A DNA stretch of 36,304 nt from Metallosphaera yellowstonensis MK1 (GTDB lineage Archaea > Thermoproteota > Thermoprotei_A > Sulfolobales > Sulfolobaceae). Numbering within the stretch: the first letter of the stretch is position 1; the number at the start of each line of letters is the position of its first letter. The position numbers were made by a program, and so were the translations under genes. This document shows, piece by piece, positions 2,019 to 24,052 of this stretch. The DNA lies in contig NZ_JH597761.1 in assembly GCF_000243315.1 (NCBI RefSeq), forward strand, positions 1,154,913-1,191,216, written 5' to 3'. A model generated the notes under the pieces. It was not told the origin of the DNA, ran no database searches, and saw only the letters and a program-made list of their open reading frames with translations.

Positions 2019-2060
2019 GTCGAACTTGAGCTGAATCCTTTCTCACGTTAATAGAAATCT

Positions 2061-2070
2061 TTTTATATTT
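2061..2070 (+). promoter_or_regulatory. TATA-type promoter of IS607 tnpA
   Basis: TTTTATATTT is centred about 26 bp before the GTG at 2091, so the message would be leaderless and the GTG is the likely start. The same sequence is kept in the miniature element at 22878-22888. Confidence 0.5.
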
Positions 2071-2090
2071 ATTTATTATCAACCAATTTT

Positions 2091-2732
2091 GTGGAGAGAC
2101 TACTGAGACCTAAGGAGGCTTGCCAACTGCTCAGCATTTCATACTCAACACTCCTACGGTGGATCAGAGAAGGGAAGATAAGGGCAGTAACGACTGAAGG
2201 AGGGAAGTATAGGATACCTTACAGCGAGATTAAGAAGTACTTAGAGAAGAGGGAAGAGACGAGGGCTGTAATTTATGCAAGGGTGTCCTCGGCTGACCGG
2301 AGGGAAGACTTGGAGAGGCAAGTGAACTACCTAACAAATTACGCAACGGCGAAGGGTTACAAGGTGGTTGAAGTACTGAAAGATATAGCTAGCGGGTTGA
2401 ACACGCAAAGGAAAGGACTGTTAAGGCTATTCAAACTTGTTGAGGGAAGGAGTGTAGACGTCGTATTAATAACCTACCAAGATAGGTTAACAAGGTTCGG
2501 TTTCGAGTACATTGAGGAGTTCTTCTCAACCGTGGGAGTTAAGATTGAAGTAGTTTTCGGTGAGGAGCCCAAAGATGACGCACGAGAGCTAGTTGAGGAC
2601 TTAATCTCAATCATTACCTCATTCGCAGGGAAAATTTACGGAATGAGGAGTCACAAGAAGACAGTCCTGGTTCAGGGTGTAAAGAAGTTGATAGGTGAGT
2701 TGAGTGGAGAGGACAGTGAAGTTAAGGGTTAG
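2091..2732 (+). CDS. tnpA: IS607-family serine recombinase TnpA
   Basis: This 213-residue recombinase catalyses IS607 transposition through a serine-linked intermediate. Residues about 5-50 form a MerR-type helix-turn-helix (PKEACQLLSISYSTLLRWIREGKI and a RIPYSEIKKYL wing). The resolvase catalytic domain follows, with IYARVSS (Ser66 the likely nucleophile), D-R-E-D-L-E-R-Q-V about 12 residues on, and DRLTRFG near residue 145. Length is normal for the family. The GTG start is supported by a TATA box 26 bp upstream. The tnpB start lies inside the last 29 bp of this gene. It looks intact, and a decayed relative lies at 31621-32080. Confidence 0.93.
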   Translation: MERLLRPKEACQLLSISYSTLLRWIREGKIRAVTTEGGKYRIPYSEIKKYLEKREETRAVIYARVSSADRREDLERQVNYLTNYATAKGYKVVEVLKDIASGLNTQRKGLLRLFKLVEGRSVDVVLITYQDRLTRFGFEYIEEFFSTVGVKIEVVFGEEPKDDARELVEDLISIITSFAGKIYGMRSHKKTVLVQGVKKLIGELSGEDSEVKG

Positions 2733-3933
2733 GGTTGACCATAAAACTTACTCAGCACTTAAGGAAGTTGAGGAGGAGTACAGAGAGGTTCTAGAGGACG
2801 CAATAAATTATGCGTTGTCAAACGAGACTACCTCCTTCATCAGGATTAAAGCTGGGATTTACAAGACTGAGAGGGAGAAGTACAAGGACTTACCATCCCA
2901 TTTCATTTACACCGCCTGTGAGGACGCAAGCGAGAGGTTGGACAGCTTTGAGAAGTTGAAGAAGAGAGGTAGGGCCTACACTGAGAAACCGTCTGTGAGG
3001 AGAGTTACTATTCACCTGGATGATCATCTGTGGAAGTTCAGCCTCGACACGATTTCAATTTCCACAAAGAAGGGTAGGGTTTTCATTTCACCAACCTTCC
3101 CTAAGATCTTCTGGAGATATTATAACAAGGGCTGGTCGATTGCCAGTGAGGCCAGGTTTAGGCTGATGAAGGGGAACGTGGTGGAGTTCTACGTCATTTT
3201 TAAGAAGGATGTTAAACCTTATGAGCCTAAGGGTTTCATCCCAGTCGACCTCAACGAGGACTCGGTCTCCGTATTAGTTCATGGAAAACCGACGCTTTTA
3301 GAGACTAACACTAAGAAAATTACTCTGGGCTATGAGTATAGGAGGAAGTTGACAACTACTGGTAAGCCAACTAAGGATAGGGAAGTGAGGGGGAAGTTAA
3401 AGAGGCTGAGGGAGAGGGATAAGAAAGTAGACGTTAGGAGGAAATTAGCCAAGCTGATCGTCATTGAAGCTTTTGAAAGTAGGAGTGCCATTGTCTTGGA
3501 GGACTTGCCAGGGAGAACTCCGGAGCATATGATAAAGGACGTGAAGGATAAACAACTTAGGTTGAGGATTTACCGTTCAGCATTTTCCTCAATGAAGAAC
3601 GCTATCATAGAGAAGGCTAGGGAGTTCGGTGTTCCAGTAATTTTGGTTAACCCATCTTATACTTCTTCAACTTGTCCAATCCACGGGACGAAGATCGTTT
3701 ACCGACCCGATGGGGGCGATGCCCCGAGGGTTGGTGTTTGTGGGAAGGGGAAGGAGAGGTGGCATAGGGACGTGGTTGCACTGTACAATCTGAAGAAAAG
3801 GGCTGGAGATGTGAGCCCCGTGCCGTTGGGCTCGAAGGAGTCCCATGACCCACCTACCTTAAGTGGGTGGCTGAGGGCTAAGTCCCTGCACTCGATCATG
3901 AATGAACATAAAATGATTGAAATGAAAGTATAG
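2704..3933 (+). CDS. tnpB: IS607-associated TnpB RNA-guided nuclease
   Basis: TnpB is the RuvC-like, RNA-guided DNA endonuclease of IS200/605/607 elements and an ancestor of Cas12. The 409-residue chain keeps the RuvC triad: D182 in PVDLNED, E266 in IVLEDL and D356 in WHRDVVALYN. The zinc-knuckle region is atypical: TCPIHG (C324, H327) then VCGKGKERWH (C346, H354), so two of the four usual cysteines are replaced by His or another residue. That pattern seems tolerated in archaeal TnpBs as I recall them. The N-terminal wedge/recognition part (1-175) is full length. The start GTG overlaps tnpA. The 3' end of the gene and the bases to 3943 probably also encode the guide-RNA scaffold. Confidence 0.92.
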   Translation: MERTVKLRVRVDHKTYSALKEVEEEYREVLEDAINYALSNETTSFIRIKAGIYKTEREKYKDLPSHFIYTACEDASERLDSFEKLKKRGRAYTEKPSVRRVTIHLDDHLWKFSLDTISISTKKGRVFISPTFPKIFWRYYNKGWSIASEARFRLMKGNVVEFYVIFKKDVKPYEPKGFIPVDLNEDSVSVLVHGKPTLLETNTKKITLGYEYRRKLTTTGKPTKDREVRGKLKRLRERDKKVDVRRKLAKLIVIEAFESRSAIVLEDLPGRTPEHMIKDVKDKQLRLRIYRSAFSSMKNAIIEKAREFGVPVILVNPSYTSSTCPIHGTKIVYRPDGGDAPRVGVCGKGKERWHRDVVALYNLKKRAGDVSPVPLGSKESHDPPTLSGWLRAKSLHSIMNEHKMIEMKV

Positions 3934-3943
3934 GGACAAACGG
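3808..3943 (+). ncRNA. Putative omega RNA scaffold at the IS607 right end
   Basis: In TnpB elements the guide-RNA scaffold is made from the 3' end of tnpB and the right end of the transposon, with the guide read from the flank. This stretch has a stem GAGCCC/GGGCTC (about 3812-3832) and a second hairpin CCCAC/GTGGG near 3849-3867. It is conserved outside any reading frame in the miniature element at 22969-23110, which suggests selection or function at the nucleotide level. The guide here would begin at 3944. No expression evidence is available. Confidence 0.5.
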
Positions 3944-5557: not shown

Positions 5558-6484
5558 TTGAAAGCTGTAAATCCTTTTTTCACAGTTTTCTCCTTTTTCA
5601 ATGCAACCGTATTTCTACCAATAGTTGTGAACGGAGTTAGGGTTCTCGGGTTATGGTATTCCCCACTAGCTGACACTGGACAGGTCACGTTTGAGATACC
5701 GTTCCTTATCTTCGTATTGGTATATGCTCTGGTGTCTGGAGTGGTCGGGTTTCTCGTGTTCAGGATGAAGAAGGGGAGGTTCATCCTAGTTCACGGGCCC
5801 ATGAGGCTGAGAACAGTGGTCAGGGCAACCTTGAGGGATGGGTTCGGAAGGGCACTGGTAATGACGTTTTTCCCCTCCTATTTCTTAAGCTACCTGGTGG
5901 TCTCTGGCCTTCTCCTTATACCAAACGTCAACGTCAGTCCCTACTTTCACGACCTCACGACCATAACTTATCAGGCAGTTGGCTTCCCAGTGTTTGGGGG
6001 ACTCCTAGTGTTCTCTCCGGTGCAGTACCTAATAGGCCTGGCCAACGACGTCGTCTTGACGCTCTCACTGATACTCAGCTACTACGTAACTTCCCTACTT
6101 TACGTCTCCTCTAACGCTCTCAAATGGGCGGTTCCTAAATCTTTGAGGTTGAGCACCTATAACACCGCAGCCGGGTTCTTAACTGCCTCCATACCATCTT
6201 TGGGCACCATAGCAGGGGTCTGTTGTCTGACCCCCACCGCAGTGAACTCCTTGCTCTACCTACTCTCGGGTGCATATCCGGCAGTGACGAAGGGAATAAC
6301 CTGGAAGTACGGAACTTTCATGGCCGGTGCTTGGACGGGAGGTATCCTGCAGGCATTGATCCTGTTTTCCCCTTCGTTGCTCGGTCTGGTGATGTTGGGA
6401 TTAGGGGTTTGGCAGGTCAGCGTGATCTCCTCCCTACTGGTTAGGAGGGCCGTCTCAATTGAAAACAGTAAACCTATCCAATAA
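5558..6484 (+). CDS. Polytopic membrane protein of sulfur module A
   Basis: I do not recognise the family. About 308 residues form roughly seven or eight hydrophobic helices with short loops. Notable features are a paired cysteine in [23 protein letters not shown], a Gly-rich segment after it ([21 protein letters not shown]) and a basic cytoplasmic loop ([27 protein letters not shown]). The frame opens with GTG at 5549, but the TTG at 5558 has a ribosome-binding sequence AAGGTGG about 6 nt ahead and is preferred. The gene starts 10 bp after the beta-propeller gene and overlaps doxD by 26 bp, so the three are surely co-transcribed. A membrane partner of the propeller or of DoxD is a reasonable guess. 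Confidence 0.75.
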
Positions 6485-19232: not shown

Positions 19233-19605
19233 AACGCTCGTGAAGGGTACGTTATCCCATTTTAAGATGTTTGTTTTGTTTCTCCCGCCACCCATTCTGT
19301 ACCTAAAACTCCAGTTTGACCCTACACCTTCACTTCAATCATTTTACATCCCATCATTATTGAATGTATGAAAACCTATTTTCTAGTATAACAGCGTTTA
19401 TTAGATTTCGCCTGATTACAGGGTGATATTTAAGGGAAAGTCCCATAACTGCTTGTATAAAAAGGATTAAGCCCATCTTGATCGGGGAAGAGAAAGTGAA
19501 CTTACATCAAAATTTCAGTGAAATTGTTAAATCACGAAAATTATACATAAATGAAGTGAATCGTAAGGGACATCTGAGTAGCCCGCTTTGTGGAGGTAGC
19601 CCTAG
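19233..19605. other. Intergenic region with one palindromic repeat
   Basis: A 373-bp gap between the ends of two convergent genes. It holds the repeat at 19392-19455. No other gene or structure stands out. Confidence 0.5.
19392..19455. repeat. Palindromic repeat of the 64-bp family
   Basis: The arms are CAGCGTTTATTAGATTTCGC and AAAGTCCCATAACTGCTTG, exactly 64 bp as in the typical copies. The centre (CTGATTACAGGGTGATATTTAA) has lost the inner GCCTT/AAGGC stem. Confidence 0.65.
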
Positions 19606-20094: not shown

Positions 20095-20600
20095 TGTGCA
20101 CACGTGGTAAACCACCTCGCCCTGACGGACGGGGCTTCCTGCTTCCTTGCCCAGCGGGTAGAGGGCGGAGGACCACAGGCACTACAGGCCACCAGTCCTG
20201 ATCTCTTGAGCACGTTCAGGGAAGCGTTTTAGTCACGGTCTGTTACCCAACTGCAGAGAACACGCGATCTGCTGAGGTCGAGTCCTTCACGTGTACGCAC
20301 ATGGCACAGGCCTTGGAGGTACATGATGGTTCGACGAGGACCAGTTCCTTGCCGTACTTCTCCACCTGGTACTTCAGGACGGTCTCGAGCTCGTGGAACG
20401 CGACGTCGCGGAGCCTCATCCTCCTTGAGGACTTACCCACCAGTTCCTTAACTTGAACGTCCTCCATGACGACCACGTCGTACTTCTCGGGGAAGTGTTT
20501 GCCCAACCTCACGTCCCTCAGCTCCTTCGAGCGCCCTTGAGCCTCGGCGAGCTTGACCTTCATCTTGAGAAACATCTTGTCCAGACTGTGACGCTTCTAC
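20095..20600 (-). pseudogene. TnpB C-terminal remnant (IS200/605 type)
   Basis: The frame at 20243-20575 gives the second half of a Tnp[21 protein letters not shown] (RuvC-II Glu), then [20 protein letters not shown] and [12 protein letters not shown] (zinc knuckle). Past a frameshift near 20245 the remaining C-terminus continues in other frames (ASLNVLKRS-like, then ACSACGPPP, RKQEAPSVRA) to about 20100. The N-terminal half, with the first RuvC Asp, is missing. It is a dead fragment of a different TnpB lineage from the IS607 element at 2034-3943. Confidence 0.75.
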
Positions 20601-20682: not shown

Positions 20683-20871
20683 ATGATCCCCCTAACTGAT
20701 GACGGGCACTGCTCACGAGGTTTGGGGAGTGATAAAAGTGTGGATGGGAGGGTAGTGGTGTTTCCCTCGACTAGCCCCAATGAGTTGAGGGTGACCCTGT
20801 GTGATCCCTTAAGAGGGGTGCCCGTGGTGGAATTAGAAGTAATTAAAGAAGATATGTTACGCCACGGGTAA
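20683..20871 (+). CDS. Small hypothetical protein, 62 aa
   Basis: I do not recognise it. The C-terminal part is protein-like and beta-rich (DGRVVVFPSTSPNELRVTLC, then DPLRGVPVVELEVIKEDM), with two cysteines in all. A good TATA box at 20651-20658 places a leaderless start at or near the ATG 20683. The antisense frame over the same bases is Ser/Thr-rich and less convincing. The ABC exporter genes follow 57 bp later under their own TATA-like sequence, so a functional link is not shown. Confidence 0.5.
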   Translation: MIPLTDDGHCSRGLGSDKSVDGRVVVFPSTSPNELRVTLCDPLRGVPVVELEVIKEDMLRHG

Positions 20872-20928
20872 ACACTTAAATTGTATGAAGCCAATTAATT
20901 TAACTTAGAGGGCTCTACTCGTTATATT

Positions 20929-22502: not shown

Positions 22503-22676
22503 TTAAAGCCCAGGTAGTAGGTCAAAGGAGAGTTCAGGTTCAAAATTTGTTGATAACCTGTTAACGACGCATGCCAGTAATCTGCAGTTCTCACCCTCCT
22601 CAGTTAATTTGCATTCGTAGAGTCCATAATTTGTAGGACACGTTGAAGTTTGCTTAATGGTGAAGTATACCTTCAT
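22503..22676 (-). CDS. Small four-cysteine protein, 57 aa
   Basis: I do not recognise it. The sequence reads like a real small domain (MKVYFTIKQTSTCPTNYGLY, then ECKLTEEGENCRLLACVVNR) with four cysteines (C13, C22, C31, C36) that could bind zinc or form disulfides. The TATA-like TTTAAATA (22699-22706, minus strand) is centred 27 bp before the ATG at 22676. This favours this methionine over the in-frame ATG at 22691 and supports a leaderless message. It converges with the exporter genes and is divergent from the miniature IS607. Confidence 0.5.
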   Translation of the reverse strand: MKVYFTIKQTSTCPTNYGLYECKLTEEGENCRLLACVVNRLSTNFEPELSFDLLPGL

Positions 22677-22698
22677 CAATAACCTTCCCATCTTTTCC

Positions 22699-22706: not shown

Positions 22707-22852
22707 CTTTCATATGAATGATAAGGAGTTTTCTTTATTTAACGACGTTTTCTAAAGGTAATAATGAAAAAGGATAGCAGGTTATATTCGCTGATCGTAA
22801 TTCTTCCATTCCGATAAATCACTACAAAAACCTAATAGGATCTAAGGGCTGG

Positions 22853-23110
22853 ATCCTTTTTCACATTAACAGAAGTCTTTTTATATTTGTTTATAATAAA
22901 TTTTTGTTGATAAATGATGACCTCTCACGCCGATGCGGGCTAAGTCCAAAGGGGTGGGAGTGATCTGGGATGTGAGCCCCGTGCCGTCGGGCTCGAAGGA
23001 GTTTCATGACCCACGTGTGACTAGAATGAGCGTGTAATTGAGGGCTAGTTACCTACACTCGATCATGAATAAAGATAAAATGATTGAAATGAAAGTGGAG
23101 GGATAAACGG
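22853..23110 (+). mobile_element. Miniature IS607 derivative without protein genes
   Basis: The left 60 bp match the left end of the IS607 at 2034 (ATCCTTT, then TCACATTAACAGAAGTC and the TTTTTATATTTG promoter). The right 142 bp (22969-23110) match the IS607 right end (3808-3943), including the GAGCCC/GGGCTC stem and the terminus GGGATAAACGG. The tnpA gene and nearly all of tnpB are gone. It is 258 bp long, flanked by GG on the left and G on the right, which fits IS607 target preference. It could be mobilised in trans by the complete element. Confidence 0.8.
22969..23110 (+). ncRNA. Putative stand-alone omega RNA scaffold
   Basis: This conserved right end corresponds to the part of IS607-type elements expected to make the TnpB guide-RNA scaffold. 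The stem GAGCCC...GGGCTC (22973-22993) is kept although the reading frame is not. The upstream TATA box at 22878-22888 could drive a transcript starting near 22908. The guide would be read from 23111 onward. Expression and TnpB binding are inference. Confidence 0.4.
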
Positions 23111-23149
23111 GAACTAGGAAAATGTTTACAAAAAAGAGCTTCCAAAGAA

Positions 23150-24052
23150 TTAGGGTCTAAAGTTCTTCCCTATCACCTTGAGCATTCCCATCATCACGCC
23201 TAGTCCCCTCTGTATGTCTGGATCCTTCATTAGGGTTATTAACTTCCCCAGAGTTACATTCTCGGGTTTTGATAGGACCTTCAAGGCCTCCTCCCCGCTC
23301 AGGACCTCTACCAGTTCACTTAAGGGGGGTCTCATGACGGAGTTCAGGAATTCTAAACCCTTGGGCAGAAAGTCGAATATGAGGGACAGGGTAGTTCCTA
23401 GGTTGGTTATGGCGTCGTCGTTGAGGGCATCCCTCAGGGACTTGAGTGCGTAAGACATGTTCACTAGGACATCTAAGGTACCGCTGTCCTTGAGCTCCAA
23501 TACCCTCTTGATGACCTCGTTAAGTTCTGGAGCTTTAGCTAATATCGCCTTTAGACCCTCTGCTGATCTCGGATTTATCCCGCTCAGGACATCCATCAAT
23601 TGTCCTATGGTGTTCCCCAGGTTGGTTATGGCGTCGTCGTTGAGGGCATCCCTCAGGGACTTGAGTGCGTAAGACATGTTCACTAGGACATCTAAGGTAC
23701 CGCTGTCCTTGAGGGCCTTTAGCCTCATCACCGCATCCTTTAACGCGTCAGCGTTGGCCAGAATGTCCTCAATTTCCTTTTGTCTCGTCTTCATGGAACC
23801 TGCTATCACCATCATGTTGGATAACATATCCGCAATGCTCTGTATGGCGTCGTCGTTGAGGGCATCCCTCAGGGACTTTGCTCCATAGCTGAAGTTTATG
23901 AGTACATCGAGTGCACCGGAATCCTTGAGTTGTGCTACCTTGCCTAGCACTTCGTTGAGGGTAGAGACGTGATCCAGAAAGTTTGCTAATTCCTCCATCT
24001 TCTTCTCGTCTAGCTTAGCCATGACCTTCTCCAAGTTGACCTCGGTAGCCAT
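23150..24052 (-). CDS. DUF1641 protein with three internal repeats
   Basis: This 300-residue helical protein ends in a DUF1641-like segment (LMKDPDIQRGLGVMMGMLKV). Three internal repeats of about 42 residues lie at 42-83, 114-155 and 188-229, each with LKDSGTLDVLVNMSYALKSL followed by RDALNDDAI; the first repeat is somewhat diverged. DUF1641 proteins are recurrently encoded beside SQR or formate dehydrogenase-type genes and lack a known activity. Here it is the last gene of the tusA-sqr-dsrE operon, 4 bp after dsrE. It has no cysteines and no signal peptide, so a cytoplasmic or membrane-peripheral scaffold role is plausible. Confidence 0.85.
   Translation of the reverse strand: MATEVNLEKVMAKLDEKKMEELANFLDHVSTLNEVLGKVAQLKDSGALDVLINFSYGAKSLRDALNDDAIQSIADMLSNMMVIAGSMKTRQKEIEDILANADALKDAVMRLKALKDSGTLDVLVNMSYALKSLRDALNDDAITNLGNTIGQLMDVLSGINPRSAEGLKAILAKAPELNEVIKRVLELKDSGTLDVLVNMSYALKSLRDALNDDAITNLGTTLSLIFDFLPKGLEFLNSVMRPPLSELVEVLSGEEALKVLSKPENVTLGKLITLMKDPDIQRGLGVMMGMLKVIGKNFRP
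23400..23494. repeat. 95-bp direct repeat inside the DUF1641 gene, copy 1
   Basis: This stretch is identical, as far as I can read, to 23619-23713. It encodes the third protein repeat (read on the minus strand). Identity at silent positions shows a recent duplication or gene conversion and not only protein-level selection. Confidence 0.8.
23619..23713. repeat. 95-bp direct repeat inside the DUF1641 gene, copy 2
   Basis: The partner of 23400-23494, encoding the second protein repeat. A third, more diverged unit lies near 23846-23925. It is not a CRISPR array, since the repeats are in frame and protein-coding. Confidence 0.8.

Follow-up and report, generated by a model that had tools for sequence, protein, structure and literature searches.

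The archaeal MITE family SMN2, to which a short IS607-derived element of Metallosphaera yellowstonensis belongs, probably carries a stand-alone TnpB guide RNA

The window, by which we mean the whole 36,304-nucleotide stretch of Metallosphaera yellowstonensis MK1 DNA that was analysed (contig NZ_JH597761.1, positions 1,154,913 to 1,191,216), holds a full-length IS607 element and a short element whose two ends are both of the IS607 type (Table 1). TnpA of the full-length element (2091-2732) is an IS607 serine recombinase, scoring 236.8 bits against NF033518 (cut-off 110), and its TnpB (2704-3933) is intact, lying above the cut-off of TIGR01766 and reaching 98.9 bits against NF040570, for which the cut-off is 100; a PDB sequence search with this TnpB gave no match. 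The short element is complete and runs from 22849 to 23110. It had originally been predicted from the sequence as an IS607-ended unit at 22853-23110, and its character was borne out while its left boundary had to be moved. Its termini, CTGGATCCTTTTTCAC... directly after GG on the left and ...GGGATAAACGG on the right, agree with those of the full-length IS607 (2031-3943), and the left end recognized by the le.hmm profile was also found on that element at 2031. The predicted TATA box and right-end match likewise held up, the former being conserved over 89 MITEs. The start of the putative omega-RNA was estimated from its expected distance to the promoter and from where tnpA begins in the full-length element. 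Rfam 15 gave no match in the window, the full-length element included, a match in Rfam not being defining for omega-RNAs.

Table 1. Coordinates of the short element, its predicted RNA and the full-length IS607 within the window.
Feature	Position	Strand	Basis or remark
GGG (flanking G plus GG crossover dinucleotide); candidate TAM	22846-22848	+	Flank counts; likeness to ISXfa1
IS607 left end with TATA-like promoter	22849-22900	+	le.hmm match 22847-22897, E 3.9e-15
TATA-like box	about 22878-22888	+	Well conserved over 89 MITEs
Putative omega-RNA gene	22908-23110	+	Start estimated about 25 nt past the TATA box
5' hairpin of the RNA, CTCTCAC (22922-22928) / GTGGGAG (22954-22960)	22922-22960	+	Covariation in MITEs and homologues
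Omega-RNA scaffold / IS607 right end	22969-23110	+	cmsearch R1, 141.8 bits (the window copy itself belonged to the training set); common to full-length copies
Stem GAGCCC (22974-22979) / GGGCTC (22989-22994)	22974-22994	+	Compensatory changes in 3 of 6 pairs
Variable hairpin CACGT (23012-23016) / GCGTG (23030-23034)	23012-23034	+	Both arms change or shrink among copies
Terminal stem preceding the guide	23048-23104	+	Two internal mismatches in the window copy
ACGG right terminus including the GG core	23107-23110	+	Candidate pseudoknot with CCGTC loop 22984-22988
Predicted guide segment from the insertion site, GAACTAGGAAAATGTTTACA	23111-23130	+	Directly past ACGG; analogy with IS607 reRNA (PMC10711439)
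Full-length IS607, candidate helper in trans	2031-3943	+	tnpA 2091-2732, tnpB 2704-3933, scaffold 3808-3943

Searching the M. yellowstonensis genome with the short element returned 41 near-full-length DNA matches, far beyond chance, and pairing of left and right ends across the genome gave 44 pairs, comprising 37 of 230-333 bp, one of 552 bp and six of 1910-2032 bp, these copy numbers being approximate for a draft genome in 21 contigs. The six long pairs are full-length IS607 elements, and a TnpB search found six copies that are intact and at least 91% identical, that of the window included. Short copies, which outnumber the full-length elements by about 6:1, are numerous, lack a transposase gene and have ends matching the full-length IS607 of the same genome. 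By its sequence, the window element is an IS607-derived MITE and one of about 40 copies in this genome of the family SMN2, not the single case originally described. None of the 44 pairs was shorter than 200 bp and no scaffold-less copy was present in the genome, whereas a need for the recombinase ends alone should have left copies of about 100 bp. The same plan recurs in MITEs of over a dozen further genomes, which extend to three other families of the order. At one locus (L008, G000:C4:46524), the MITE is about 20 bp away from a run of N and shares its left flank with L011; the scaffold may have been joined through the repeat there.

SMN2 is annotated as MITE-SMN2 in the virus SMV1, in two copies, and occurs also twice in the plasmid pMGB1 (accessions of the virus and plasmid records HG322870, NC_021914). 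A typical chromosomal copy, L004, is 93.5% identical to the SMV1 form and 88.1% identical to the pMGB1 form over its full length. The sections of PMC3839810 that were consulted describe SMN2 as 'MITE-like' and related to SMN1, note small putative ORFs in it and name an IS200 transposase as its probable mover, and those sections make no mention of a guide-RNA role. In contrast, the ends of SMN2 as analysed here are those of IS607, and the attribution to an IS200 transposase is probably mistaken.

To describe the predicted RNA, 47 divergent MITEs were aligned. In this alignment 92.9% of 2462 pair cells pair, compared with 33-47% in slid controls, and two-sided changes occur in 17 of the 54 pairs, with 40 such cells against a shuffle mean of 16.0. 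The covariation score exceeds that of all 500 shuffles, although with this tool related sequences can beat shuffles without structure; the more robust pair and pair-type counts were matched by 1 and 0 of 500 shuffles, respectively. Pairs are kept even though copies differ by up to about 25%. The stem GAGCCC/GGGCTC, conserved as predicted, carries its compensatory changes in several genomes, reading GACCCG/CGGGTC in L103 and showing a C-G to U-A replacement in L101, L102 and L146. The hairpin CCCACCTACC...GGTAGGTGG is shortened on both arms in some copies, to CCCACCTATAAGGTGG and CCCACAGTGG, and is replaced in others by CCCACACACG...CGTGTGG; in genome G155, the MITE and the full-length element share an identical shortened hairpin. 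Among the inferred changes away from Watson-Crick pairs, 132 led to G-U and 76 to A-C, a lean expected if the RNA of the + strand matters, to which mutation bias may contribute. These are counts of events, used because an initial count of cells, since dropped, was inflated by pairs in which G-U is the commonest form.

Some parts of the structure are less readily read. The candidate pseudoknot CCGUU/AACGG keeps 94% of its pairs over the 47 MITEs and, being nearly invariant, is weakly informative. GGGCUC/GAGUCC and AGCCC/GGGCU are rivals for the same strands, and most minimum-energy folds contain them; covariation favoured the GAGCCC/GGGCTC stem plus AGUCC/GGGCU. An RNAalifold fold of the first alignment was set aside, as it broke the 5' hairpin.

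This 5' hairpin lies where the original prediction had the left end joined directly to position 22969, and it is part of the conserved RNA. In full-length elements the homologous hairpin, of the form ACCAACCC-GATG-GGGGC-nnT-GCCCC-AA-GGGTTGGT, is located inside tnpB, between zinc-finger residues, and 99 nt separate it from the scaffold that follows, compared with 38-45 nt in elements belonging to other families and about 39 nt in the MITEs. Across 15 sequences, from autonomous elements and the MITEs of genome G108, the hairpin shows 42 two-sided cells against 15.9 in shuffles and is 95.4% paired, compared with 29-48% when slid, and its outer stem lay outside the search pattern yet covaries strongly. 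The MITE-type hairpin taken alone gives a weaker signal, its pair and type counts being matched by 101 and 24 of 500 shuffles, respectively; this form has two-sided changes of its own and is absent from the full-length elements examined. Since the hairpin covaries and precedes the scaffold, the MITE would in effect be a promoter fused to a complete omega-RNA. Genome G108 also contains differently built MITEs. One group there consists of the left end, the first tnpA codons, a fusion to the tnpB zinc-finger hairpin and then the scaffold, others enclose the same internal loop with another stem (CCTGCAGGG...CCCTGCAGG), and all of them, with their different middles, retain one hairpin and the scaffold. 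From their sequences, we read these MITEs as products of at least two independent reductions converging on the same RNA. A separate observation comes from a Caldivirga MAG (L211, about 5679-5703, - strand), in which the same hairpin directly precedes a TnpB-like start (MRVREVLRTVKLRVKINYDVHSALEEVEREY), with a stop soon after.

In 87 of 98 MITEs the GG core is preceded by a further G, as it is in 18 of the 21 longer left-end/scaffold pairs, most of which are full-length elements, and GG is present at both element junctions. TnpB of the IS607 element ISXfa1 has a GGG TAM, with GG as the crossover dinucleotide (PMC10711439). By analogy, the GGG flank of SMN2 is a candidate TAM equal to that of ISXfa1, but a preference of TnpA itself for GGG could account for the flank as well. 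One of the pMGB1 copies interrupts plrA, and its guide would be GATAATAGAGAGGAAGTGGC; in the plasmids pBEU9E1 and pB12E5, where plrA is uninterrupted, GGG is followed by TATAATAGAGAGGAAGTGGC, identical to this guide at 19 of 20 positions. GGG plus guide-like sequence in uninterrupted plrA is what a homing model predicts of an empty site. At two sites, plrA of pMGB1 and L019, the sequence with the element removed is one base short of its homologues, and reading-frame restoration across the junctions gave an ambiguous crossover position. For the second pMGB1 site, no uninterrupted homologue spanning the junction was found. All SMN2 copies on SMV1 and pMGB1 (L212-L215, L221) have the GGG flank, and their guides point to viral or plasmid loci.

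The window copy itself is in poorer condition than the family. Its stem pairs are 86% intact against a family mean of 93%, its stems have changed as fast as its loops (17.6% versus 16.0%), and its folding energy is unremarkable (z -1.4), while five other copies range from z -2.5 to -4.7. An open tail of tnpB of about 60 codons is retained in younger copies and is interrupted by a stop in the window copy, which qualifies the original statement that no reading frame is kept. By these sequence measures it looks like an old, partly decayed member of SMN2, and a present-day function for it is doubtful. The proposal of a stand-alone guide-RNA unit is well supported for the family by the covariation, TAM-like flank, promoter, size distribution and G108 retention, but is doubtful for the decayed copy from which it was made. 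Reduced pairing and equal change in stems and loops make this copy a poor choice for experiments, for which L004, L014 or the SMV1 copy would be better. Two neighbouring features were also noticed. A small sequence at 22567-22680, to the left of the MITE, has the opposite orientation relative to ABC genes in congeners; the window MITE may thus mark the breakpoint of a rearrangement, and its two flanks would then not necessarily stem from a single site. At 19312-19560 (- strand) lies a degenerate right-end relic of the SMN2 family (cmsearch 27.7 bits, E 1.3e-5), into which a further small repeat seems to have inserted.

The best overall explanation, to which we assign a probability of roughly 0.7 from the sequence comparisons, is that SMN2 exploits TnpA and TnpB of full-length IS607 elements and has been selected to keep its RNA. 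SMN2 would have lost both protein genes while keeping ends recognized by TnpA, an archaeal promoter and a complete TnpB omega-RNA, the guide being whatever DNA adjoins the right end. TnpA from full-length copies would move it in trans, and its transcript would load the TnpB that they make and guide it to the site in its uninterrupted form, that is, GGG plus the guide sequence. Cutting there could lead to repair from a sister copy, restoring copies lost by excision, or to conversion of empty sites, and selection would then act on SMN2 to keep the RNA. That the family is a MITE with a conserved stand-alone TnpB guide RNA is the part we hold with most confidence and regard as highly probable; loading of TnpB in trans, with the RNA retained since it aided persistence, is only somewhat favoured. 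Counting against this model, recombination with resident full-length copies could import RNA constraint into the scaffold, and the MITE form of the 5' hairpin alone is free of constraint imported in this way. We also put forward, tentatively and at slightly less than even odds, that SMN2 is a 'double parasite', in which mobile protein-less guide-RNA genes of more than one origin use TnpA and TnpB in trans, ride viruses and plasmids, and would aim TnpB at uninterrupted loci of rival replicons (e.g., plrA, pBEU9E1 and pB12E5).

SMN2 could instead be an ordinary deletion derivative, in which the scaffold was kept by a chance endpoint, spread was recent, and covariation was inherited or recombined from autonomous elements. 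The many MITEs of this genome that are 92-97% like the IS right end, together with the hairpin shortened alike in MITE and IS of G155, would fit such an origin, but the retention of pairs despite the divergence among copies, the two-sided changes particular to the MITE-form 5' hairpin (whose counts alone are weak), the different construction in G108 and the lack of copies below 200 bp make it unlikely. It is much less probable still that a long right end is needed by TnpA, with binding sites over about 200 bp and no role for the RNA in the MITE: TnpA must recognize both ends, and the last 50 bp or so of the element are strongly conserved, yet a serine recombinase acting on double-stranded DNA explains neither the covariation, nor the tolerance of G-U on one strand, nor symmetric deletions centred on a hairpin.

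Two further alternatives concern what the RNA might do. It could act as a decoy or brake that ties up TnpB and lowers cutting or spread by full-length elements, to the benefit of the host or of the MITE; at a MITE to IS ratio near 6:1 the RNA could saturate TnpB, but a decoy needs neither the GGG flank nor an intact 3' terminus, both of which are kept, and we consider this highly improbable. Least credible is co-option by the host, as the original prediction allowed, with the window copy guiding TnpB to repress or modify the neighbouring gene. The guide does lie just downstream of a convergent gene (23150-24052), but in five congeners that gene is present and the MITE absent. A search for the empty site within the genus found the gene, beside which the intergenic sequence had diverged too far for the junction to be aligned. 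Given the decay of the window copy and the MITE-free site in five congeners, host regulation is unsupported at this site.

The preferred reading, in which SMN2 draws on IS607 proteins in trans, depends on helpers, and the complete IS607 that the original prediction proposed as one is intact in this genome, but many other MITE-bearing genomes are without an intact close TnpB. None was found at E<=1e-60 in G114, G119, G081, G108, G142 or G171; in G146 and G167 the TnpB copies are broken, and in G175 the match is split in two fragments. The persistence of MITEs in such genomes implies that SMN2 is not functional everywhere. Pairs are intact at 94.6% in genomes with an intact TnpB compared with 89.8% elsewhere, a difference that is suggestive of better pairing (nominal p 0.03, uncorrected for relatedness). 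The outcome named as refuting in the original prediction, right ends only beside intact tnpB and broken stems in free-standing copies, was looked for in part and not seen: free-standing copies proved to be the majority, with the stem kept by compensatory changes.

Altae-Tran et al. reportedly described, in 2021, stand-alone omega-RNAs for IscB at loci where the nuclease gene is absent, presumed to act in trans. SMN2 resembles these as guide-RNA loci without a nuclease gene, but the IscB case is bacterial, whereas SMN2 belongs with IS607 TnpB, in archaea, as a mobile MITE of many copies. With the IS607 omega-RNA or reRNA of ISXfa1 (PMC10711439) it shares a right-end RNA with stem-loops and the GG crossover, and it has a candidate pseudoknot and, as a candidate TAM, the GGG flank; it differs in that the RNA is freed from tnpB and follows the left-end promoter in an element that has lost both tnpA and tnpB. 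The PATEs of Haloquadratum, as presented in the sections of PMC3119063 consulted, are likewise protein-less derivatives of TnpB-bearing elements in archaea, but they are IS605-type, have near-terminal palindromes and include 52-bp versions consisting of termini only; those sections report no RNA retention. SMN2 was thus already known as a MITE, and its putative identity as a guide RNA is new as far as our literature search reaches. If the preferred reading is correct, a TnpB guide RNA worth keeping alone would be natural evolutionary evidence, beyond that from the laboratory, that TnpB helps transposons persist, and a described MITE family of the Sulfolobales would be re-explained. It would also offer dozens of natural guide/target pairs for testing, and naturally compacted scaffolds of about 180-200 nt, some shorter, with their own promoter, in genetically tractable thermophilic archaea.

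Several observations on individual copies were made in passing. In some copies (L005, L016, L064 and L081) the terminal stem-loop holds inserted DNA with CAGCAGTTAT- or ATAACTGCTG-like borders, which suggests a second small mobile element that targets the SMN2 MITE. A sequence of about 127 bp (window 20748-20874) adjoins a truncated TnpB of another subfamily (20243-20575) and recurs near several such TnpB genes (L034-L041), and the L019 MITE sits in one copy of it; it may be the terminus of a further IS that has an RNA of its own. Finally, a subfamily in G175 and G155 (L094, L128, L134, L140, L170, L126 and L169), present in several copies, has lost 9 nt that include one arm of the GAGCCC/GGGCTC stem, and thus amounts to a natural experiment on which stems the element requires.
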